Shown one piece after another: positions 2,515 through 42,451 of a stretch of DNA of 64,000 nt. The translations under genes and the position numbers were made by a program. The notes under the pieces are model-generated. The model was not told the origin of the DNA. It worked only from the letters and a program-made list of their open reading frames with translations, and ran no database searches. Each line of letters starts with the position of its first letter. The first letter of the stretch is position 1. The DNA lies in NCBI GenBank assembly GCA_017883235.1, contig JADGNY010000001.1:1-64000 (forward strand), given 5' to 3'. Origin of the DNA: Thermoanaerobaculia bacterium (GTDB lineage: Bacteria > Acidobacteriota > Thermoanaerobaculia > Gp7-AA8).

Positions 2515-5500
2515 ATGAACACTGACCTTTGGTACAAAGACGGGATCATCTACCAGACGCATGTCCGCGCCTTCTTTGACGCGAACAACGACGGTGTCGG
2601 CGATTTTCAGGGTCTGACGCGCAAACTCGATTATCTCCAGGACCTCGGCGTCAACATCATCTGGCTGCTTCCGTTCTATCCGTCGCCGTTGCGCGATGAC
2701 GGGTACGACATCGCCAATTACACCGCGGTCCATCCGAGCTACGGCACGCTGGCAGATTTCAAGGCCTTTCTCAAAGAGGCGCACCGGCGAGGACTCAAAG
2801 TCATTACCGAGCTGGTGATCAACCATACCAGCGACCAGCACGAGTGGTTTCAGAAGTCGCGGCGCGCCAGGCCGGGATCACCGTGGCGTGATTTCTACGT
2901 CTGGAGTGATACACCGGACAAGTACAAGGACGCCCGGATCATTTTCAAGGATTACGAGACATCGAACTGGACGTGGGATCCTGTCGCCAACGCGTACTAC
3001 TGGCACCGCTTCTTTTCTCATCAGCCCGATCTCAATTTCGACAATCCCGCGGTTCACGCGGCTCTGCTCAAAGCCCTCGACTTCTGGATGGAGATGGGAG
3101 TCGATGCCTTCCGTCTCGATGCCATCCCGTACCTGTTCGAGCGGGAAGGGACTACGTGCGAGAACCTGCCCGAGACGCATGCCTATCTGAAGTCGCTACG
3201 CGCGCACGTTGACGCGAAGTATCCCGGCAGGATGCTGCTCGCAGAGGCCAATCAATGGCCGGAGGATTCCCTCCCCTATTTCGGCAACGGCGACGAATGC
3301 CACATGGCCTTCAATTTCCCGGTCATGCCGCGGATGTACATGGCGCTGGCCCAGGAAGACCGCTTCCCCATCATCGACATCATGGCCCAGACGCCGGCGA
3401 TCCCCGAGAACTGCCAGTGGGCGATGTTTCTCAGGAACCATGATGAGCTGACGCTGGAGATGGTGACGGACGAGGACCGCGATTACATGTGGCGGACCTA
3501 TGCGTCCGACCGCCAGGCGCGCATCAATCTCGGCATCCGGCGCCGGCTCGCGCCGCTCATGCAGAACCACCGGCTCCGCATTCACTTGATGAACGGTCTG
3601 CTTTTCTCATTTCCCGGTACGCCGATCATCTACTACGGCGACGAGATCGGGATGGGCGACAACATTTACCTCGGCGACCGCAACGGCGTCCGGACGCCGA
3701 TGCAATGGAGTCCGGACCGCAACGCCGGCTTTTCCAGGGCGAACCCGCAGCAGCTCTACATGCCGGTGGTCATCGATCCGCAGTACCACTATGAGCAGGT
3801 CAACGTCGAGCAACAGCAGACCAGCCCGTATTCGCTGCTGTGGTGGATGAAGCGCCTCATCGCCCAGCGCAATCGCTATCAGGCATTCGGCCGCGGAACA
3901 ATGGAGTTTCTGTATCCCGAGAACCGCAAGGTGCTGGCGTTTGTACGGCGTTATCGCGACGAAACGATCCTGGTCGTTGCCAACCTGTCGCGGCTCGTAC
4001 AGTGCTTCGACCTCGATCTGTCCGCATTTCAGGGGATGACGCCTGTGGAGCTCTCCGGCGGCACACGATTCCCCGAAATCGGCGACCGGCCGTATTTTCT
4101 CAATCTGGGCCCTTTCGCCTTCTACTGGTTCTCACTCGAGCGTCAGCAAACAAGCGAGACCAGCGCGGAGGTGCCGCTTGTCAGTGCGTCGAATTTCGAG
4201 GAAGTGTTCTCAGAACGCAACCGCGACGATGTCCGCGGCGCTCTGGAAACCTATATCCGGTCGCGCCGCTGGTTCGGCGGCAAGGCACGCACGATCACGT
4301 CGCTGCGAATCATCGATACCGTCGCGCTCCCGGACGATGCAGGCCACCTGGCATTCGTAAAGATCGAATACGCGGATGGCGAACCGGAGAGCTATCTCCT
4401 GCCGCTGGCGATCATGCATGCCAGGCGTGAGCAGGAGACGGCGAAGGTGTCGACGCTGATTGCACGTTTGCGCGACGGCTACCTCTTGTACGAGCCGGTG
4501 TCGGATGCGAAGTTTGCCGCCGCCTTGCTGGAGCTCATCGCGCGGCGCCGGACGCTGAAGGCCGACCAGGGCACCGTCACAGGCACGACGACACGCGTAT
4601 TCAGGGAACTGCGAGGCGAGGCCGTTCTCGCACCTCAGACTCTGAAGACCGAGCAAAGCAACACGGCCATTCTCTATGGCGAGAGCTTCTTCATGAAACT
4701 CCTGCGGCGCTTAGAGCCCGGGATGAACACCGAGATCGAGGTGACGCGCTTCCTCAACGATGAGACGTCGTTTCGCAGCACGCCTCGCCTCGCCGGTGCA
4801 TTGCAATATGAAGCAACCACATCGGCCGAGACGTCGACGCTGGCCATCCTGCAAGGCTACGTGGAGAACTCAGGCGACGCGTGGAACTACACCGTCGACG
4901 CCATCGGACGCTTCTTCGATTCGATCCTTAGCGATTCCGCGGCGACGGAACGGGTCGCTGTAACGTCCTCCGAGTCGTTGCTTGTCATCGCTGGAAAGCC
5001 GTCGCCGGACATTGCGCAACAGACGATCGGTCTCTATCTCGCCGACGCGGAAATCCTCGGCAGGCGTACGGCGCAAATGCACCTGGCCCTTGCCTCGCGC
5101 GACGACATCGCGGCGTTTGCCCCTGAGCCGATCACTCCGCACTATCAACGCTCGATCTACCAGCACATCCGCTCCCAGGCCGTGCGTACGCTTCAATTGC
5201 TGCGCCGCCGCGGAAAAGGGAATCCGGATGCGGAGGAACTGCTGGCGCGCGAAGCGGAGATCCACCAGCATATCCGCCGGATCCTCGATGGCCGCATCAC
5301 CGGCCTTCGCATTCGCACGCACGGCGACTATCACCTCGGCCAGGTGCTGCACACCGGCAACGACTTCCTCATCATCGACTTCGAAGGAGAACCGACGCGG
5401 CCCCTGAGCGAGCGCCGCATCAAGCGCAGCGCCTTGCGCGACGTCGCCGGCATGCTGCGCTCCTTCCACTACGCGCCATATGCCGTGCTGTTTGGTCAAT

Positions 5501-8227: not shown

Positions 8228-9742
8228 ATGACCCACACCTCCACCCCCCAACCCGAAAACCCCTCACGCTCCTCGGGCGTCCTGCTCCATCCGACCAGTC
8301 TTCCCGGACGATTCGGCATCGGCGACCTCGGCGATGAACTGCTGACGTTCCTTGACTGGGCACAGACGGCAGGACTGCGTATCTGGCAGGTGCTGCCGCT
8401 CAACACGCCGGGCTATGGCAATTCGCCCTACGGATGCCTGTCGTCGTACGCCGGCAACCCGCTGTTGATCTCGCCGGCGCGTTTATTGGAAAGTGGATTG
8501 CTGCCGGCCGGCGCGCTCGATGATTTGCCGGAGTTGCCGGAAGACCACGTTGATTTCGATCGCGTCACGGTACTGAAGCACGATTTGCTGCAGCGCTCGT
8601 TCGAGCACTTCTCCAAACATGCCTCCGACGAACAGCAGCAGGCGCTGGCCGCGTTCGTGCGCGATAACACCTGGCTTGAAGGCTGGGCTCTCTACGCCGC
8701 GCTGAAAGAGCTGCATCATGGCCGGCCATGGACGGCATGGCCGCAAGACCTGGCCACGCGCGAGCCCGACGCCATCGCCGGCGCGCGCCTCGATCTCGCG
8801 GACGAGATCCGTTTCAACGAATACGTTCAGTGGCTCTTCTTCGGACAGTGGGCCGCGGTACGCCAGGCCGCACACGCGCGCGGCATTCGCATCATGGGAG
8901 ACGTGCCAATCTACGTCGCCGGCGACAGCGCCGACGTCTGGATCAATCGCGAGATCTTCCAGCTCGACGAGCACGGCCAGCCGACCGTTGTCGCCGGCGT
9001 ACCACCCGATTACTTCAGCGAAACCGGGCAGCGATGGGGCAATCCGCTTTACCGCTGGGATCTGTTACGCGAGACCAACTATCGCTGGTGGGTATCACGC
9101 GTTCGCGCCGCCCTCCGCTTTGCCGACGTCCTTCGCGTCGATCACTTCCGCGGCTTTTCGGCGTACTGGGAAATCCCGGCCGCCGAGCCGACGGCAATCC
9201 GCGGCCGATGGATGCCGGGCCCCGGCCGCAAGCTCTTCGACGCCATACGCGATGCACTCGGGGAATTGCCCATCGTCGCCGAGGATCTCGGATTCATTAC
9301 CCCGGAAGTGCAGGAGCTGAGGAGGGCCATCGGCGTACCGGGGATGAAGATCCTGCAGTTCGCGTTCTCACATGCGCACAGCGCGCACCTGCCGCATGGC
9401 TACGACCCTAAGACCGTCGTCTACACCGGCACGCACGACAACGATACGGCCCGCGGCTGGTACGAAGAGGCCACCGCGGAAGAGCATGAAACGGTAGAGG
9501 CGTACCTCGGCGTCACCGACGCCGACGACGTGGCCTGGGCTCTGATCCGGGCCGCCTATACCTCGGTAGCCGAAACGGCCATCGTTCCGGTTCAGGACAT
9601 TCTCGACCTCGGCACCGACGCTCGGATGAATATGCCGGGCGCCGAGCACAACAACTGGTCCTGGCGCCACCGCAGCGGCGCGCTCACGGCCGAACATGCG
9701 GAGAGGCTGCGGAGGCTCGCTCAGGTTTCCGGACGGCTTTGA
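8228..9742 (+). CDS. malQ: 4-alpha-glucanotransferase (amylomaltase)
   Basis: This GH77 disproportionating enzyme transfers alpha-1,4-glucan segments between malto-oligosaccharides, releasing glucose. Its 504 residues are the normal short bacterial form. The N-terminal SSGVLLHPTSLPGRFGIGDL is diagnostic. FADVLRVDHFRGF provides nucleophile Asp ~305, PIVAEDLGFIT provides Glu ~352, and GTHDNDT holds the third acidic residue. It is the last gene of the forward glucan cluster, 13 bp after the GH57 gene. It could recycle maltose and maltodextrins for TreS and GlgE. Confidence 0.96.
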   Translation: MTHTSTPQPENPSRSSGVLLHPTSLPGRFGIGDLGDELLTFLDWAQTAGLRIWQVLPLNTPGYGNSPYGCLSSYAGNPLLISPARLLESGLLPAGALDDLPELPEDHVDFDRVTVLKHDLLQRSFEHFSKHASDEQQQALAAFVRDNTWLEGWALYAALKELHHGRPWTAWPQDLATREPDAIAGARLDLADEIRFNEYVQWLFFGQWAAVRQAAHARGIRIMGDVPIYVAGDSADVWINREIFQLDEHGQPTVVAGVPPDYFSETGQRWGNPLYRWDLLRETNYRWWVSRVRAALRFADVLRVDHFRGFSAYWEIPAAEPTAIRGRWMPGPGRKLFDAIRDALGELPIVAEDLGFITPEVQELRRAIGVPGMKILQFAFSHAHSAHLPHGYDPKTVVYTGTHDNDTARGWYEEATAEEHETVEAYLGVTDADDVAWALIRAAYTSVAETAIVPVQDILDLGTDARMNMPGAEHNNWSWRHRSGALTAEHAERLRRLAQVSGRL

Positions 9743-10628: not shown

Positions 10629-13388
10629 CTACGCCTTCTCCAGTACTGCTAAGGGAAACCTCTCGAAAAGACGACGGATGGCGATCCCGTGGCCATCGTG
10701 ATTCTCCTCGGTGAAGAGGTCGCGCCACCTGCCGGACACGCCCAGCGACGCGTCGCCCCACACATCACCGATTGGAAGAGCACCTGGCTTGACAAGGCTG
10801 GCTATGAGCCGCGGGACTGCGACCAACACCGCGTCGCCCTCGTGACGCCGAACGAACGCGCAGATGTTCGGGGCGGCATCGAGCGGCTCGTAAGTGCCAT
10901 CGCCGAAGAGGTCCACGTGACGCGCTCGCAGCTCCAACAGCTTCCAGGTGACGAACATCTTGATCCGTCCGTCGTGCCAGCGGCGCAGGAGCGTATCGAC
11001 GGAGACGGTCTTCATCTTCTTGAGCATCGCGGCGCGGTGCTGGTAGTCGACGGGACGGCGATTGTCGGGATCGACGAGACTGAAATCCCACAGCTCGCTC
11101 CCCTGGTAGAAGTCGGGCGCGCCGGGCGCGGTCGCTTTGAGCACGACCTGCGCGAGGGAATTGAGGAAACCATAGAAGGCGACCGGCTTCTGAAAGCGGG
11201 TCAGATCGGCGCAGAACTTCGGATCGCTGAGGAGGGCGTCGGCGAAGGACAGCAGCCCCTCCTCGTACTCCGGATTCGGCGCGATCCAGCTCGTATGGGT
11301 CTTGGCCTCGCGAGCGGCCTTCTCCAGGTAATGCCTCAGACGGTCACGGACCGAGGGTAATTCCGCGTTGTCGAGCGGCCACATACCGATGAGCGTCTCG
11401 TAGACGAGCAGCTCCGTATTGCGATCGCCGATTCCGTGCCGTTTCGACCAGCGGAGCACCTGCCGTTCCCATCGCGCAGCGATCTCGGAAAGGACGTTGA
11501 TCCGGGCGCGGATGTCCTCGCTCCGTTTCGTATCGTGCGTCGACGTGGCGTTCATCGTATGCGGCCAGTGACGCTGCATCCGCAAGCCATGCTCGTGGAA
11601 CTCGGTGAGGCCGTCAAATGTTTCGCGTCCCGGATTGCCGCCGACCTCGTTGAGCGAGATCAGTCGGTTGTAGTTGTAGAAGGCGGTGTCCTCGACGCCC
11701 TTGGCCATCACCCGGCCGGTGAACTGCTGCCAGCGCATGACGAAGGCCAGCCAATGCTCGTGTTCCGAGGAGACGTATGGCGGCGGATCGACGAGAAGAA
11801 CGCGTTCGAGGAAGGTGAAGAGCCGCTCATCGAGCGCCGATCCGGCGCGGCGCCGTGCCTCCGCGACCGCGGCACGGATCGATTGCGCATCGGCGTCACC
11901 GATCGCTCCCTCGCGAATATACGTTCGGTAGACGCACATACAGGCCGTCACCTCGGTGAGTGCCGCGGTGAGATCGACCGGCGCGAAGTCGCGCGCGTTC
12001 CGGTCCGGCATGGCCACGGCACCCAGTTGCTTACCGAGCGCGCGCATCTCGCCGGAGAAGAGCTCGTGGATGATCTGTTTCTTTCGCGCGTAGCAGATGT
12101 CGTCGAATGTCTCGTTCACACCTGTGAAGCCTCGGTAGAAACGATCGAGCTGTTGCAAGCCCTTCGGATCGACGAAAAGCGCGTTGGCGGAGTCGAGGAA
12201 GTCGTAGCCGGTCGTACCGCTGACCGGGAAGTCGACCGGCAGCTCCTCGCCATGCTCCAGGATCTTCTCCAGGACGATGTAGAAACTCCTGTCATCCGAG
12301 GCATGACCACGGGAGTCGGGGGTCGGGGTTCGGAGAGAAGAGTCTCCGACGCCCGACCCCCGGTCCCCGACTCCCGTCAGGCGCAACTGCATCTTGCGCA
12401 GGTAGCCGGCCGGATCGTGGAGGCCGTCGATGTGATCGATACGCAGCCCGGTCACTTTCCCTTCCGCGATCAGCTCGAACGTACGCCGGTTCTGCGCCTC
12501 GAACACTTCCGCGTTCTCGACGCGGACGCCGACGAGATCGGTAACGTCGAAAAACCGGCGGTAGTTGATCTTCTTGCTGGCGATTCGCCAGTAAGCGAGC
12601 CGGTACCACTGCGCGTCGAGGATGGCATCGAGCAAGTTGAAACTCGCGGCCTCGCCGGGAACGCCATTGATTCGCGCGATGACGGCGTTCAATGCATCGC
12701 GAAAGGTGACGTCCTGCTCGTAGATGCGCCAGAGTGTTTCCTTGAGGAACCTGCTGTTCGAGACCGTGTCGGCGTCATCGGCCAGTTCGCGCAGTTCCAT
12801 GGCAACGCCCTCGGGGGGCAGCGAGGCGATGATCTCGTGAAGAATCGCTCCGTACGTCTCAGGCGCGAGTGGCAGGCGCGTGTCGTAGTAGGTGAAGAAG
12901 AAGCCGTCGGCATCGAAATGAAGCTTGATCTCCTGCGATTCGAGCGCCTCGCCGTACGGCTTGCCGAGGATCGGGAGCAGAACTTTGAAGGACGTCTGGT
13001 CGGACGTCGTCACGGACATCCAGGCGGTGTCGAAGTAGTACCGGAACCGCGAGTGCTCGCCATTTTCGAGAACGCTCATCCACCATGCGTTCTCGTGGGT
13101 GGCGGCCATGTGATTCGGAACGATGTCGAGCAATAGGCCCATCTGGTGTCGTTGCAGCTCAGCGTGAAGGGCGTTGAAATCGTCCTCCGTTCCCAACTCC
13201 GGATTGAGCGCGCCGGCATCGACGATGTCGTATCCATGCGCGCTCCCTTTGCGCGCGCGAAAGATCGGCGAGGCGTAGACGTCGCTGATGCCGAGCTCGG
13301 CAAGATAGGGAACGATCGCCCGCGCGTCGGCGAAGGTGAAGCCGGCATTGAACTGGAGGCGATACGTGGCTCTCGGGACGCGGTACAT
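10629..13388 (-). CDS. treY: Malto-oligosyltrehalose synthase
   Basis: This GH13_26 enzyme converts the reducing end of a maltodextrin into an alpha,alpha-1,1-linked trehalosyl end. The 919-residue protein begins with YRLQFNAGFTFADARAIVPY and DVYASPIFRARKGSAHGYD, typical of TreY. VTGLRIDHIDGLHDPAGYL carries the nucleophile Asp, and NATSTHDTKRSEDIRAR and a YQGSELWDFSLVDPDNRRP block follow. TreZ, which normally releases trehalose, is not in the window. An in-frame palindromic repeat (12311-12375) adds ~22 residues of low complexity between a helix and the strand FYIVLEKILE. It is divergent from gluQ and convergent with malQ. Confidence 0.94.
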   Translation of the reverse strand: MYRVPRATYRLQFNAGFTFADARAIVPYLAELGISDVYASPIFRARKGSAHGYDIVDAGALNPELGTEDDFNALHAELQRHQMGLLLDIVPNHMAATHENAWWMSVLENGEHSRFRYYFDTAWMSVTTSDQTSFKVLLPILGKPYGEALESQEIKLHFDADGFFFTYYDTRLPLAPETYGAILHEIIASLPPEGVAMELRELADDADTVSNSRFLKETLWRIYEQDVTFRDALNAVIARINGVPGEAASFNLLDAILDAQWYRLAYWRIASKKINYRRFFDVTDLVGVRVENAEVFEAQNRRTFELIAEGKVTGLRIDHIDGLHDPAGYLRKMQLRLTGVGDRGSGVGDSSLRTPTPDSRGHASDDRSFYIVLEKILEHGEELPVDFPVSGTTGYDFLDSANALFVDPKGLQQLDRFYRGFTGVNETFDDICYARKKQIIHELFSGEMRALGKQLGAVAMPDRNARDFAPVDLTAALTEVTACMCVYRTYIREGAIGDADAQSIRAAVAEARRRAGSALDERLFTFLERVLLVDPPPYVSSEHEHWLAFVMRWQQFTGRVMAKGVEDTAFYNYNRLISLNEVGGNPGRETFDGLTEFHEHGLRMQRHWPHTMNATSTHDTKRSEDIRARINVLSEIAARWERQVLRWSKRHGIGDRNTELLVYETLIGMWPLDNAELPSVRDRLRHYLEKAAREAKTHTSWIAPNPEYEEGLLSFADALLSDPKFCADLTRFQKPVAFYGFLNSLAQVVLKATAPGAPDFYQGSELWDFSLVDPDNRRPVDYQHRAAMLKKMKTVSVDTLLRRWHDGRIKMFVTWKLLELRARHVDLFGDGTYEPLDAAPNICAFVRRHEGDAVLVAVPRLIASLVKPGALPIGDVWGDASLGVSGRWRDLFTEENHDGHGIAIRRLFERFPLAVLEKA
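12311..12375. repeat. Palindromic repeat inserted in frame within treY
   Basis: A 65-bp near-perfect inverted repeat begins GGGAGTCGGGGGTCGGGG and ends with its complement CCCCGACTCCC, with an imperfect centre. It keeps the treY frame open and encodes a glycine/serine/proline-rich segment (TGVGDRGSGVGDS and following) absent from ordinary TreY sequences as I know them. It falls in a surface-loop position before FYIVLEKILE. It resembles in-frame palindromic elements such as those described in Rickettsia. Confidence 0.8.
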
Positions 13389-21091: not shown

Positions 21092-24000
21092 CTATTTGTG
21101 AACCGCCCTCTGCCTCGGAGTTGAAGGGCCAATCGTGACGGTGCCAATCAGCTCGTCGTTAACGCGCGCCGAGATTGTCAGCACCTCAACCGCGGCGGGA
21201 GCACCCACCGAGGTTATGTAACGGCCGACATCGCGATACAGCGGATAGCCCGTAGAACCTCGCGAACTGGTGATGGTAATACTCGGCGTGTTGTCGTAAT
21301 TCAACGGAATCTGCTGCCCGCCCGCACCCAGGAGCTGGACTTCAATGTCGTAGCCACCTCTCGTGGGAGTTACCGTGAGCCGCGAGTCATGCGGAGAGAC
21401 CGGGACGGTCGTGGGAGAGTAGCTGTAGTGTAATGACATTCCGGGTAAATAGTTGTCGTCGCCGCTGTATTCGGCGCGAATCGAGTGAAGGCTGGCCCCG
21501 AAATCACGCGTGACCGTCGCGAAGCTCGCCGCGGGTGCCGTAGCGAGAACGGTATTCGAGAAGACATCGCGGAATGTTACGGTACCGCTGGGCTCAAACA
21601 TCTCGGTGCCCAGGCCTATCCGTGCTGTCAACGTGGAAGGGAATGCGGCGAGATCGCGTCCGAAAAACAGATCGACAGCAACACCCCTCCTCGGAACGTC
21701 CATCAGAAACTCCGTGGAGGAGCGTGCGAAGATCGCATCGCCTGAGTAGTCGGCGGTGACGTGGTGACTTCCGGCCCTCAGAGGTAGCGCCGTCGACGAG
21801 CCCAGTTCGACGCTACCGACGATCCGGTCATTGTCGCGAAAGACGACCGTTCCCGTAGGCACACCCGAGGAGCTGGATACGTGCGGCGTGATGATGCCCG
21901 TATTCGTAACAACATACCCAACGGGGTTCTGGATATCGAAAGAAGTCGAACTTGCCGCTTCACCCGTCGCCGTGGGATGCGCCAACAGAATCGACAGGCC
22001 CTTACTTGTAACGATCACAGCGTCGCGCTGGCCATCGCCGTCGAAATCAGCCGATCCGGCCAGTGTCGCGTTCATGAGCTGGCCCACGCGATCAAATTGA
22101 AGATTACCCCGATTGAGAAGAATCGACCTCGGCGTGATGATATCGGTGCGATGGTCTCCATCCCAGTCGAGGAATACGGCCGAGCCTCCGTCGATAAAAA
22201 CTCCGCCGATCGAATGTCCGGAGTACGAAGGGTACGCGAACGTTCCATCGCCATTTCCATGTTGCACGCTCAGGCGCTCGGCAAATGTGAACTCATCAAG
22301 TGTGAACTTGATCAAATCCGGTATTCCGTCGGAGTCCAGGTCGGCAATTCCGATCCAACCCCAGTCAGTCGGATAATCGTGAATCGGAGCGCCATGAATG
22401 ATTGAGCGGCCTCCATTGATGATGAGATCGCTCGAATCAGAGCGACTCGGTGAATAAAGATCGATCAGACCGTCTCCGTTCACATCTCCCAGCACCCCGG
22501 AGATAGGCCATCCCACAACCGGACGGAGCTTCCGGTCACGCGTAAACCCAGCGATCTCGAGCAGGCCATAGGTAGTGAACAACAAGTCTGATGTACCCTC
22601 ATTGAACATGTCCGCCGCGCCCAAGAGCACGGCGGAAGGGAGTGCCGGTTTGACCTCAATAAATTCTCCATCGCCGGCTCCAAAAAGGACGGAGGTCGAG
22701 GACATCCCCGTCTGTATGGCAACGTCGACGTTGCCATCTCCGTCAAAGTCGCCGGCCCGTGCGGCCACGAATTCATTATTTGCGTTGCTTGGCCGGATCA
22801 ATCCTGGACGCCGTTCAAGGATACCTCTCCCTCTATTCATGAAGATCAGCAATTCGGGAGTATCGACGGGTGAAATGCAACAGCTCTGTGTAACGACCCC
22901 GACGTCGGGATACCCGTCATGGTCGAAGTCGGCCACGAAAACCAGGAGTGCCCTACGATCGTACAGCGAAGTCGATTGCGTGACACTGGCGAAGGAATAG
23001 ACGATGGGCGCGTCGATTCTGCCGTTTCCCGCGCCAACAATCGTCGCGAGCAGGAGCTGTTTGTCGGGACCGTCGCCATCCACGACAACGTCCGGGATCC
23101 CGTCACCCGTGAAATCAGCGACAACGATCCGATAGGCCCCATAGGATATGAAGTACGTCGTCGGCGGATCCAACGCCGTGCCTCCGCGATTGAGGGAGAT
23201 GGTGATCGTTCCTTCGCTGACGCCAACGAGATCCGGATACCCGTCCCCATTGACGTCCGCCACGGTCGAGAATGCTCCAGGCATGCTCGAGACCGTGGCC
23301 GGCGCAAGCCAGCCGTTTGCTGATCCGAATGTAACAGCGACATTCGCGTCATAGTCGAAAGCTGCTGAAATCGCGTCCAAATAGCCATCCCGGTTGAAAT
23401 CCGCGTAAAGAGGACCTGACACTTTTGGACTGGCGACGAATGTAAAGTTGCCACTCTTATCCAGATTGAATTCGTCAGTCCAGAGGGGTCGCGCGGCGAT
23501 CAACTGCAGCGTCCCCTTGGGATCGCGCCACATCGTCAGCGAGTTGACTAACCCATAATGGCTGACATCGCTGACCTCGATTGACGGACCCTTCGCCAGC
23601 CCACTCCGAGATCCGAAGTACGCCGTGAGAGTTTCCTGCTGAACTTGTCCTCCGACGATCGCGTACTGCCACGACGCAACGACGACGTCGGTCAACCCGT
23701 CTCCATTAATGTCACCGACCGCGGAAGCCGTGAAATTGGGAGCCGGCATTGCGGTCAAAACAGCAGGCGCGAAGTTGCCTTGGCCAGTGCCCTTCAATAA
23801 CCTCATGTTTTGCGACGAAAAGCTCATCGTCAGCAGATCGGCAACGCCGTCTCCATCGAAATCAGACAGAAAAACTGACGATGTGGACCCGTCATCAAGC
23901 TGCGTACATGGCTTGAAATGCCCATCACCTTTGCCGAGCATCAACGAAACGCCGTCCGGACCGCCGGCGATAAGATCGGCCTTCCCATCGCCATCGGCGT

Positions 24001-24154
24001 CGCCTCCGATCAATACCCAGCCTTGGCCGGCGCAGGTGAGAGCGATGGTAGGCCGTGCGGCAGGAAAGACCGTGAACTGGGGCTCCGCAGCCATGACAAG
24101 CAGAGCCAGCAGACAAAGAATTGCGGACGAGAGGTACCTGGATACGTGACGCAT
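21092..24154 (-). CDS. Secreted FG-GAP/VCBS repeat protein with Ig-like domain
   Basis: The 1020-residue protein has a signal peptide (MRHVSRYLSSAILCLLALL). More than ten FG-GAP/VCBS repeats follow, with calcium-binding-like loops such as DADGDGKADLIAGG, DFDGDGVADLLTMS, DINGDGLTDVV and DFDHDGYPDVGVV, predicting a beta-propeller array over residues ~30-690. The C-terminal third has Ig-like repeats (GTVVFRDNDRIVGSVELGSS, then HHVTADYSGDAIFARSS). It is probably an extracellular adhesion or carbohydrate-interaction protein; no enzyme motif is seen. Confidence 0.85.
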   Translation of the reverse strand: MRHVSRYLSSAILCLLALLVMAAEPQFTVFPAARPTIALTCAGQGWVLIGGDADGDGKADLIAGGPDGVSLMLGKGDGHFKPCTQLDDGSTSSVFLSDFDGDGVADLLTMSFSSQNMRLLKGTGQGNFAPAVLTAMPAPNFTASAVGDINGDGLTDVVVASWQYAIVGGQVQQETLTAYFGSRSGLAKGPSIEVSDVSHYGLVNSLTMWRDPKGTLQLIAARPLWTDEFNLDKSGNFTFVASPKVSGPLYADFNRDGYLDAISAAFDYDANVAVTFGSANGWLAPATVSSMPGAFSTVADVNGDGYPDLVGVSEGTITISLNRGGTALDPPTTYFISYGAYRIVVADFTGDGIPDVVVDGDGPDKQLLLATIVGAGNGRIDAPIVYSFASVTQSTSLYDRRALLVFVADFDHDGYPDVGVVTQSCCISPVDTPELLIFMNRGRGILERRPGLIRPSNANNEFVAARAGDFDGDGNVDVAIQTGMSSTSVLFGAGDGEFIEVKPALPSAVLLGAADMFNEGTSDLLFTTYGLLEIAGFTRDRKLRPVVGWPISGVLGDVNGDGLIDLYSPSRSDSSDLIINGGRSIIHGAPIHDYPTDWGWIGIADLDSDGIPDLIKFTLDEFTFAERLSVQHGNGDGTFAYPSYSGHSIGGVFIDGGSAVFLDWDGDHRTDIITPRSILLNRGNLQFDRVGQLMNATLAGSADFDGDGQRDAVIVTSKGLSILLAHPTATGEAASSTSFDIQNPVGYVVTNTGIITPHVSSSSGVPTGTVVFRDNDRIVGSVELGSSTALPLRAGSHHVTADYSGDAIFARSSTEFLMDVPRRGVAVDLFFGRDLAAFPSTLTARIGLGTEMFEPSGTVTFRDVFSNTVLATAPAASFATVTRDFGASLHSIRAEYSGDDNYLPGMSLHYSYSPTTVPVSPHDSRLTVTPTRGGYDIEVQLLGAGGQQIPLNYDNTPSITITSSRGSTGYPLYRDVGRYITSVGAPAAVEVLTISARVNDELIGTVTIGPSTPRQRAVHK

Positions 24155-29332: not shown

Positions 29333-29380
29333 AGTGAAATCGCGAACGTATCGCGCGTCGATGACGGTGGAGTACACGTT
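29333..29380 (-). pseudogene. DUF2442 fragment
   Basis: Sixteen codons read [16 protein letters not shown], nearly the same as [16 protein letters not shown] of the intact DUF2442 gene at 30486-30782. Homology stops after DFT. The fragment holds the palindromic core CGCGAACGTATCGCG at 29341-29355. It marks a rearrangement breakpoint. Confidence 0.75.
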
Positions 29381-29504: not shown

Positions 29505-29538
29505 AACACAAAACGGGCGGCCTCGCGGCCGCCCGTTT
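29505..29538 (-). terminator. Terminator of rpoC-tail copy A
   Basis: The stem AAACGGGCGGCC / GGCCGCCCGTTT (29511-29538, loop TCGC) is followed on the minus strand by TTTTGTGTTT. It is the same terminator as the one after rpoC at 32258-32292, and was duplicated with it. Confidence 0.85.
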
Positions 29539-29561
29539 CCGTTGATGCGATGAGATAGAAC

Positions 29562-29963
<402 letters not shown>

Positions 29964-30525: not shown

Positions 30526-30782
30526 CCTGAAGGGCGGAAGAGCAACTCCTCCGGCGCGATGTCTGCGCCGTTCGGCCAGCAGATCGTGCCGTACTCGGCG
30601 ACTGAGAAGTTGCGGAAGTAGTTCACGTCCTTCAGCGGCTCGAAGACAGGACCCCATAGCTCGTCGGCGAGTTCGATTTCTCCCTCGCTTCCGTCGGCGA
30701 ACTTCGCCCAGATGGTGAAATCGCGAACGTATCGCGCATCGATGACGGTGTAGTAGATGTTCTCAGTGATTCTATCGATCAC
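30486..30782 (-). CDS. Second DUF2442 domain protein, convergent
   Basis: The core reads [40 protein letters not shown], then NYFRNFSVAEYGTICWPNGA DIAPEELLF. This is the other DUF2442 subtype (ELWGPVFEPL, WPNGADIAPE). GTG 30782 is proposed as the start; the frame extends to an ATG at 30827, but those codons are the terminator hairpin. It lies on the minus strand directly after rpoC-tail copy B and its terminator. Two truncated relatives of its N-terminal coding sequence lie at 29333-29380 and 31093-31124. Confidence 0.7.
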   Translation of the reverse strand: MIDRITENIYYTVIDARYVRDFTIWAKFADGSEGEIELADELWGPVFEPLKDVNYFRNFSVAEYGTICWPNGADIAPEELLFRPSGYRRVSSHLASDL

Positions 30783-30797
30783 GCCATCCGTAGAAAC

Positions 30798-30823
30798 AAC
30801 GGGCGGCCTCGCGGCCGCCCGTT
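30798..30823 (-). terminator. Terminator of rpoC-tail copy B
   Basis: AACGGGCGGCC / GGCCGCCCGTT with loop TCGC is followed on the minus strand by TGTTTC. This is the third copy of the rpoC terminator stem; its T-tract is weaker than at 32258-32292. Confidence 0.75.
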
Positions 30824-30842
30824 TCATACGATGAGATAGACC

Positions 30843-31499
<657 letters not shown>

Positions 31500-32257: not shown

Positions 32258-32292
32258 TGAAAACAAAACGGGCGGCCTCTCGGCCGCCCGTT
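32258..32292 (-). terminator. Rho-independent terminator of rpoC
   Basis: An 11-bp stem AACGGGCGGCC / GGCCGCCCGTT (32267-32292, loop TCTC) is followed on the minus strand by TTTTGTTTTC, 24 bp beyond the rpoC stop. It ends the rplK-to-rpoC transcription unit. Confidence 0.88.
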
Positions 32293-32315
32293 CGATTGAT
32301 GCGATGAGATAGACC

Positions 32316-36563
<4,248 letters not shown>

Positions 36564-36628
36564 ATGCGCCTCCCTATGTGGTTCGGCTACGAGATGACGG
36601 CCCAGTGGCCGCCGGCTCGAACTAATAT

Positions 36629-37810
36629 TTACGGCGTGTAGATCAACTCCACGGGGACGATCTCGAGACCAGAGAAGCCAAAGTCGCACCCGACGGTATC
36701 GACAGGAACGAAGAGATAGCTCCCCGCCGGGCATCCATTACAAAGCGGACCGTTATAGATGCCGGGGTAATAGAGCGTTTTCCCCGCGTACGAACCCGCT
36801 GATCCACCAAGAGTCGATGTATCGACGACTCCACCATACGTCCATTGGCCGCTTGCCAAAGAGTTTGAATACTCCCACTCAATCGGCTCACCGGCGTTCG
36901 ACTGCGCAAAATGAACCCATGCGCTCAACCGAGGATCGAATTTGACGTCCCCAGCGCCGGTGTTCATGGGCATACACGCACCCTCCATGAGGACAGGATC
37001 CCCGGGATACGTCGCGGCATTGTCGTAATTCCAAACGAGATATCCGGAATCGGCGACCCATTGCCCGCCCTGCCAGATCTCGTGAATGGGACCGATACCA
37101 AACGGATGATTCACGTTGTAGGTAAATCGGAAAGCCACCACTTCAGAGCCTCGGAAGTGGCCGTTGTTATAGTGTGAATACCGAATGTGAATGTAAAAAT
37201 AGCCAGCCTCGAAATTCAGGGATACCTGATCCGTGCCCGAGGGGTGGTCGCCATCCAATCCCAGACATTCCTCGTGGTAGATAGGATTGACGATGGGAGT
37301 AAGGCCCTGACCACCCGCGCCCCAATTGTAGAGATTCCAGGAAAGGCCATCGGAGGATACCGCCCAGTAAGTCTTCCCCGTAATCCCATCGGAGTTGCCC
37401 CCGACGTAGGCCATGTAGTAACGATCGCCGACATGAACCACGCTTGGACTGGCGATAGGCCCGCGAGGAGTCGAGTCGGGCGAGTATGCGCAACGCGTAT
37501 ACAGCCCGCTCAACTCCGGAACGAGAAGAGGAGCCGATGATGTCGGGACCGACCAAGCTCCATCGGCAGCCTTCCTTGTGAACGCGAAGAAGTAGTCGGT
37601 CGCAGAATCGCTGTTGCCCTGCGCAAGAAGACGAAGATCTCCGTTTGGAAGCGCGAAGATCTCAGGATCATAAACACGGTCTCCACAGTTGTGGCCGTAG
37701 ACATTCGTCAGACGGGGTTTGTAGACGACCCCTGTTCGATAGCTCCCCGCGGAGAGAGCTGCCGGAATGAGCAGGCTGAGAGAAAAACAAAGCGTCAGCG
37801 ATTTAGACAT
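36629..37810 (-). CDS. Secreted beta-propeller-like (GH43/68-like fold) protein between rpoB and rpoC
   Basis: From ATG 37810 the 393-residue product has a signal peptide ([20 protein letters not shown]). Repeated elements follow: [58 protein letters not shown]. These resemble blades of five-bladed propeller glycosidase folds. Catalytic acids cannot be fixed by eye, so no activity is claimed. It lies 65 bp upstream of rpoC on the same strand and must be transcribed with rpoBC unless it has its own promoter. Its base usage is less GC-biased than that of rpoB or rpoC, suggesting acquisition. Confidence 0.75.
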
Positions 37811-37972
37811 AGCCGCATGCGATAGATCGACGTCGACGACATTCACCCGACCGTCGATCATTGACGGACCACAGCCGATGCGCAACGTGCGCCCGGCTGT
37901 TTCTGGGTCGACCCTGTCGATCGTCTGTAAGGTGATTGACGTCATGCCTTTGCCTTCGAGTAAATCGTTATC

Positions 37973-38164
37973 TCAGGCGTTATCCGTTGAACGCGGTTTC
38001 GGAAGCGAAAGAGCCACGGTGTTTCCGTAGCACTCCCAGCACGGTGCTTCCCATTCCTGGTCGCCGCTGGGAAAGTGCGCGGTCATGCTGACTGCCCCCA
38101 TGCCCTGACAGGCAGGGCATGAGACGTTGGGCATGCTGGTAACCGCTGTGACTTTTTTCGCCAT
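37973..38164 (-). CDS. Small DnaJ-type zinc-finger protein downstream of rpoB
   Basis: The 63-residue protein has two CxxCxG-type half-sites, SCPACQGMGAVSM and PCWECYGNTVAL, spaced by ~25 residues. This is the pattern of half a DnaJ cysteine-rich domain. It starts three bases after the rpoB stop, so it is almost certainly cotranscribed and probably translationally coupled with rpoB. The role is unknown. Between it and the propeller gene, a 45-codon stretch reads LRIGCGPSMIDGRVNVVDVD, resembling a methyltransferase motif I, perhaps a relic. Confidence 0.65.
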   Translation of the reverse strand: MAKKVTAVTSMPNVSCPACQGMGAVSMTAHFPSGDQEWEAPCWECYGNTVALSLPKPRSTDNA

Positions 38165-38167
38165 GCG

Positions 38168-42451
<4,284 letters not shown>

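Follow-up and report, generated by a model that had tools for sequence, protein, structure and literature searches.

The genes for the β and β′ subunits of RNA polymerase, rpoB and rpoC, form one of the best-conserved bacterial gene pairs and are normally adjacent. Type I DnaJ proteins, in turn, carry four CXXCXGXG motifs, which bind two zincs. A stand-alone version of such a zinc finger has been described in ZnJ2, a J-domain-less protein with holding activity that has been linked to rbcL polysomes (PMC5818400), while DksA, a regulator of the polymerase, is a target of the zinc-binding domain of DnaJ itself (PMC8262869). Further, genes of unrelated function have been inserted into and beside the operon cluster considered here, as reported for nrdHEF between rplL and rsmC of Lactobacillaceae (PMC8046335). 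In the available passages of a published survey of an otherwise conserved cluster, 77 of 115 events were traced to gene insertions. Those cases resemble the one described below in that lineage-specific genes entered a conserved cluster; however, the examples in these passages lie between operons or between rplL and its flanking gene, and the rpoB-rpoC junction is not among them. We found no description of a bacterial gene between rpoB and rpoC in the open-access literature, which does not prove that none exists.

The window analyzed here, a whole stretch of 64,000 nucleotides, derives from the genome of a soil acidobacteriote (Thermoanaerobaculia), in which rpoB and rpoC are separated by 1,604 bp (36564-38167). 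On the minus strand the genes are ordered rpoB, a gene for a 63-residue zinc-finger protein, a gene for a secreted protein and rpoC, with the following features:

38168..42451, minus strand: rpoB, β subunit, 1427 aa (from the ORF list; C-terminus 97-100% identical to those of family members)
37973..38164, minus strand: stand-alone half DnaJ-type zinc finger, 63 aa (from family conservation, the PF00684 match at E=1.6e-5 and dN/dS)
36581..37972, minus strand: lineage-specific insert of 1,392 bp, from the zinc-finger stop codon to the Shine-Dalgarno region of rpoC (from the empty site in two congeners)
37811..37945, minus strand: in-frame upstream extension of the secreted-protein ORF, 45 codons (ATG at 37945)
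36629..37810, minus strand: secreted, β-rich protein, 393 aa (ATG aligning with that of the homologue in genome G016)
36586..36622, minus strand: possible stem-loop at the insert's 3′ terminus (not followed by a T-run; not called as a terminator)
32316..36563, minus strand: rpoC, β′ subunit, 1415 aa (TTG start at 36563)

The first-pass annotation had noted 1.6 kb between the two polymerase genes on the same strand and a DnaJ-type zinc-finger frame three bases past rpoB; both descriptions are accurate, with rpoB ending at 38168, the TTG of rpoC at 36563 and the ATG of the zinc-finger frame lying 3 nt past the rpoB stop codon. The rpoB and rpoC frames are intact on either side of the gap, which lies on a single 202-kb contig of a draft assembly (6.9 Mb, 246 contigs), and a Shine-Dalgarno sequence, AGGGAGGCG, stands immediately 5′ of the rpoC start. 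Conservation indicates that both frames in the gap are genuine genes rather than chance ORFs, because the zinc finger is conserved in nine genomes and the secreted protein has homologues in two. The two genes had been treated as one oddity, a view that does not survive comparison with the relatives: they differ in age and origin, the zinc finger being present in nine genomes of the family and the insert in this genome alone. By a small measure, we lean toward an explanation in which the gap consists of two layers of different age, an old zinc-finger gene and a young insert, taken together with the function proposed below.

The size of the gap sets this genome apart as an extreme outlier among its relatives. 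Among the matches listed for 107 Acidobacteriota genomes, a sample biased to closer relatives, the rpoB-rpoC distance has a median of 134 nt and reaches at most 467 nt in the other genomes, against 1,607 nt here. It was measured between matches of the last 120 residues of RpoB and the first 120 of RpoC on the same contig, and includes any C-terminal extension of RpoB, so that the values for the other genomes are upper bounds.

The zinc-finger protein is defined by a C16-x2-C19-x-G-x-G motif followed by C42-x2-C45-x-G. An alignment of its nine members has 17 invariant residues, including the four cysteines C16, C19, C42 and C45 and the glycines G21 and G23. It resembles the DnaJ cysteine-rich domain (PF00684) in having a CxxCxGxG motif and, about 20 residues on, a second CxxCxG motif with a predicted β-hairpin between them, and it matches that profile with 25.5 bits, under the cut-off of 32.7. 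It differs from that domain in its two rather than four motifs and in the absence of a J or C-terminal domain. Indeed, all nine members contain one CxxCxGxG and one CxxC (mostly CxxCxG), short of the four motifs of type I DnaJ, and no J domain with an HPD motif is found in the 63-residue frame. A structural model is confident only locally (mean pLDDT 64, pTM 0.33) but contains the expected central β-hairpin; a fold search with it yielded nothing significant, the top match being DnaJ (E=1.4). The same zinc motif is also present in anti-TRAP (RtpA, PF15777/NF058604), likewise a small protein, whose two profiles match weakly (E=0.0096 and 0.0011, respectively). However, the protein falls far under the cut-offs (NCBIfam score 19.1 against 65 bits) and the genome contains no TRAP gene by a PF02081 search that does detect it in B. 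subtilis, and this identity was rejected. With ZnJ2 and the BSD2-type proteins it shares the stand-alone DnaJ-type zinc finger and, as a concept, a holding function dedicated to the making of a single complex (PMC5818400). ZnJ2 itself, however, carries four motifs and is directed to the chloroplast, and the likeness is one of motif alone.

Clear homologues of the zinc-finger gene were recovered in eight other genomes in a search of 60 relatives, all from the same family. The gene is present at nine of the 12 assembled rpoB-rpoC junctions of this family (Thermoanaerobaculia, Acidobacteriota), and in every carrier (G000, G001, G002, G006, G009, G010, G012, G013 and G016) it lies between the two polymerase genes, in line with the linkage to polymerase genes proposed at first pass. 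A profile search of 149 genomes of the class produced no further clear members. Across 84,980 species genomes of GTDB, scanning recovered the same carrier set plus two matches, one in Anaerolineae and one in an unclassified bacterium, which lie inside UvrA-type ORFs and were discarded as not being relatives in function. Within the genomes searched, the zinc finger is a feature of this family and no local oddity. Two weak profile matches, in G010 and G017 of the family, were likewise set aside as belonging to a different small protein, with a PDPNCPYCHGSG half zinc finger and a DPSEEDTLVxK tail (L074, 1501-1680, in G010; L073, 1408-1713, in G017), which is unlinked to rpoBC. The zinc-finger gene is absent at three assembled junctions of the family, with gaps of 30 nt (G005), 77 nt (G008) and 217 nt (G015), and likewise from G018, of the closest neighboring family within the order (gap 48 nt).

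The start codon of the zinc-finger gene lies 3-8 nt past the rpoB stop in seven of the nine genomes and 80-82 nt past it in the other two, where palindromic repeats occupy the space between the genes (G010, L015, 1189-1269; G013, L022). At the G015 junction (L017, ~390-560) a palindromic element of ~110 nt (GTCATCCCGAGCG...) is flanked on both sides by the terminal ~28 nt of rpoB, an arrangement that looks like a small repeat element with a target duplication at this same junction. The rpoB-rpoC junction seems prone to small insertions. On a phylogeny built from rpoC and rpoB fragments, the distribution of the zinc-finger gene requires a minimum of two changes, whereas shuffled patterns average 6.8. 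This fits one gain followed by losses without proving it, the inner family branches of the tree being poorly resolved. Among three congeners, dN/dS (Nei-Gojobori) is 0.15-0.30 for the zinc-finger gene and 0.03-0.06 for rpoC, i.e., about five times higher in the former, values that place the zinc-finger gene under purifying selection. Additionally, the nearest congener differs between the two genes: the zinc-finger gene (37973-38164) has a dS of 0.33 to G002 as opposed to 0.48 to G001, while a segment of rpoC (35667-36563) has a dS of 0.23 to G001 as opposed to 0.34 to G002. On these small numbers, this could be a trace of recombination.

The second layer is delimited by the two congeners G001 and G002, in which the site is empty: the sequence ...GCCTGA is followed directly by CACATAGGGAGG and rpoC. 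In other words, the congeners have GATAACGCCTGA joined to CACATAGGGAGGCGC and rpoC, while here GATAACGCCTGA is followed by 1,392 bp and then by CACATAGGGAGGCGC and rpoC. The first-pass view of the secreted gene as an insertion is thereby upheld, and its absence from the rpoBC junctions of the relatives confines it to this genome, which contains one copy. The insert has a single ORF and lacks any frame for a transposase or integrase; no target-site duplication was found, the longest word common to its two ends being 3 nt, and none of the usual marks of a transposon or integrative element (recombinase gene, terminal repeats, target duplication) is present. Neither a σ70-like promoter nor a strand-matched terminator was found at its ends, and the possible stem-loop is no better than those of shuffled sequences (z = -1.2).

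The encoded protein has a hydrophobic signal-like stretch at its N-terminus, in keeping with its initial description as secreted; the propeller-like character included in that description found no such backing, as no Pfam or PDB match passes and the single-sequence AlphaFold model is unusable (pLDDT 33). A short motif, PSVV..YYM...G....I..A.S.DG..W, is common to this protein and β-1,2-mannobiose phosphorylase, recalling the GH130/GH43-like five-bladed glycosidase propellers. However, this best match in the GH43/GH130 propeller test is not significant (E=1.1) and there is no Pfam family match, and a β-propeller glycosidase-like fold is guesswork based on this single short motif. Two clear homologues were detected among the 149 genomes of the class, one a stand-alone gene of 383 aa in G016 of the same family (42-43% identity), the other a secreted protein of 795 aa in G065, matched over its N-terminal part (38-39% identity); the wider phylum offered short motif matches only. 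None of these three members has a Pfam family, and searches of Pfam, NCBIfam and PDB gave no passing match for the protein. The 45-codon extension has no Pfam match, and its DNA was not found in 60 relatives; its methyltransferase-like look by eye was dismissed for want of such a match.

The secreted gene had also been called foreign. Its GC3 of 0.62 is indeed lower than that of rpoB and rpoC (0.87), but the window also contains a secreted FG-GAP gene (21092-24154) with a comparable GC3 of 0.65, a relative of which sits behind rpoC in the congener G002. Low GC3 is thus common to at least one secreted gene of the lineage, and base composition was rejected as proof of foreign origin. With the nearest homologues in the same family and class, the foreign label is not borne out.

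The region downstream of rpoC has a history of its own. The last ~300 nt of rpoC (true end at 32291-32590), together with the hairpin terminator, recur twice, at 30818-31117 and 29537-29836, with small genes for a nucleotidyltransferase, DUF4160/DUF2442 proteins and an ABC ATPase as cargo between the copies. The congener G002 (L046) has the same arrangement of rpoC tails (4706-5188, 8803-9290 and 12775-13280) with other cargo, namely an FG-GAP protein and a 1053-aa protein, while the other family genomes checked for an rpoC tail have one copy. Compared with the true rpoC end in the two genomes, the near copy has silent-to-replacement codon ratios of 6:1 and 22:1 and the far copy, which has decayed, of 18:8 and 18:11. 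This pattern fits serial insertion of an rpoC tail with its cargo by one-sided homologous recombination, newer units pushing older ones away, and suggests that the 3′ end of the rpoBC operon is a recurrent landing place. In pneumococcus, tandem duplications arise during transformation (PMC3784515), at a far larger scale than that of the rpoC tails. A DUF2442-related segment of 27-36 nt (GTGAAATCGCGAACGTATCGCGC...) is present three times in both orientations within this region of rpoC tails (30711-30746, 31087-31122 and 29334-29365).

These observations may be accommodated by the following sequence of events. In an old event, in the ancestor of the family or early within it, a gene for half a DnaJ-type zinc finger would have settled at the rpoB-rpoC junction. 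In a young event, a 1,392-bp segment with the secreted gene was inserted in this species alone, presumably by recombination without a recognizable mobile element, into the spacer of ~20 nt that separates the stop codon of the zinc-finger gene from the ribosome-binding site of rpoC, leaving the Shine-Dalgarno of the latter intact. The secreted gene would then be a passenger riding on operon transcription, and rpoC is probably read through the insert because the latter is co-oriented with the operon and no promoter or terminator was found. Joining of a gene from elsewhere into the junction through an assembly or binning error might come to mind for an insert unique to one draft genome of 246 contigs, but seems very improbable: one 202-kb contig spans the gap, both breakpoints fall in a tiny intergenic spacer with neither gene damaged, another genome of the family has a homologue and, the insert being single-copy, there is no repeat to mislead the assembler. 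The clean ends of the insert and the serial insertions behind rpoC might instead recall delivery by a mobile element or site-specific system, such as a transposon cassette, an integron-like system or a phage-derived one; we consider this unlikely given that there is neither a transposase or integrase frame nor a target-site duplication beyond 3 nt, and that neither viral contigs, searched with exact peptide patterns, nor plasmids gave a match to the secreted protein. It is equally doubtful that the insert decouples rpoC from rpoB by a promoter of its own, resetting the β/β′ ratio. The 162-nt non-homologous leader 5′ of the secreted ORF could hold a promoter outside the model of the σ70 scan, yet no σ70-like site was found, and with a co-oriented insert free of terminators read-through suffices.

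As for the zinc-finger gene, it is probably part of the operon transcript, with its translation coupled to that of β, because its start usually lies 3-8 nt past the rpoB stop. We infer that its product would most likely bind one zinc via the two CxxC pairs and serve as a small holdase or an assembly or redox factor for new RNA-polymerase subunits or a polymerase-bound protein, much as J-domain-less zinc fingers of the DnaJ type serve other complexes. In its most specific form, a family-specific, rpoBC-encoded dedicated chaperone or regulator that is translated from the shared mRNA between β and β′, captures nascent β or β′ (or their zinc sites) and aids assembly, the proposal is tentative and on balance improbable. 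Alternatively, the protein may be unrelated to the polymerase, either a small zinc or redox protein of general function or a near-dispensable passenger, that landed once behind rpoB and was then inherited, staying there because rpoBC is rarely rearranged; we give this serious weight, somewhat below an even chance. The fixed location can reflect inheritance instead of function, and the gene has been lost from or is absent at three of the 12 family junctions, which means that it is not essential for the polymerase within the family. It also evolves faster than rpoC, and genes of unrelated function do enter this operon cluster, as in the nrdHEF example (PMC8046335). Against this, one would expect a protein of general use to have moved now and then, whereas clear homologues were never found away from rpoB-rpoC in the searched genomes, and the gene combines purifying selection with tight coupling to rpoB. 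Gene linkage makes an RNA-polymerase factor plausible, and action on the polymerase or its making appears the most likely reading, with inheritance as a passenger nearly as likely.

Most members of the family retain a gene at the exact rpoB-rpoC junction, and no clear copy of it was found at any other place, which makes it a strong lead toward a new polymerase-associated protein. The young insert, for its part, indicates that even this junction can take an unrelated gene of 1.4 kb, tolerated when it lands in the spacer, is co-directional and spares the ribosome-binding site of rpoC; the insert would appear to satisfy these conditions for a survivable intrusion. Thus, the conserved rpoBC operon accepts passengers, and the zinc finger within it is a candidate RNA-polymerase helper.
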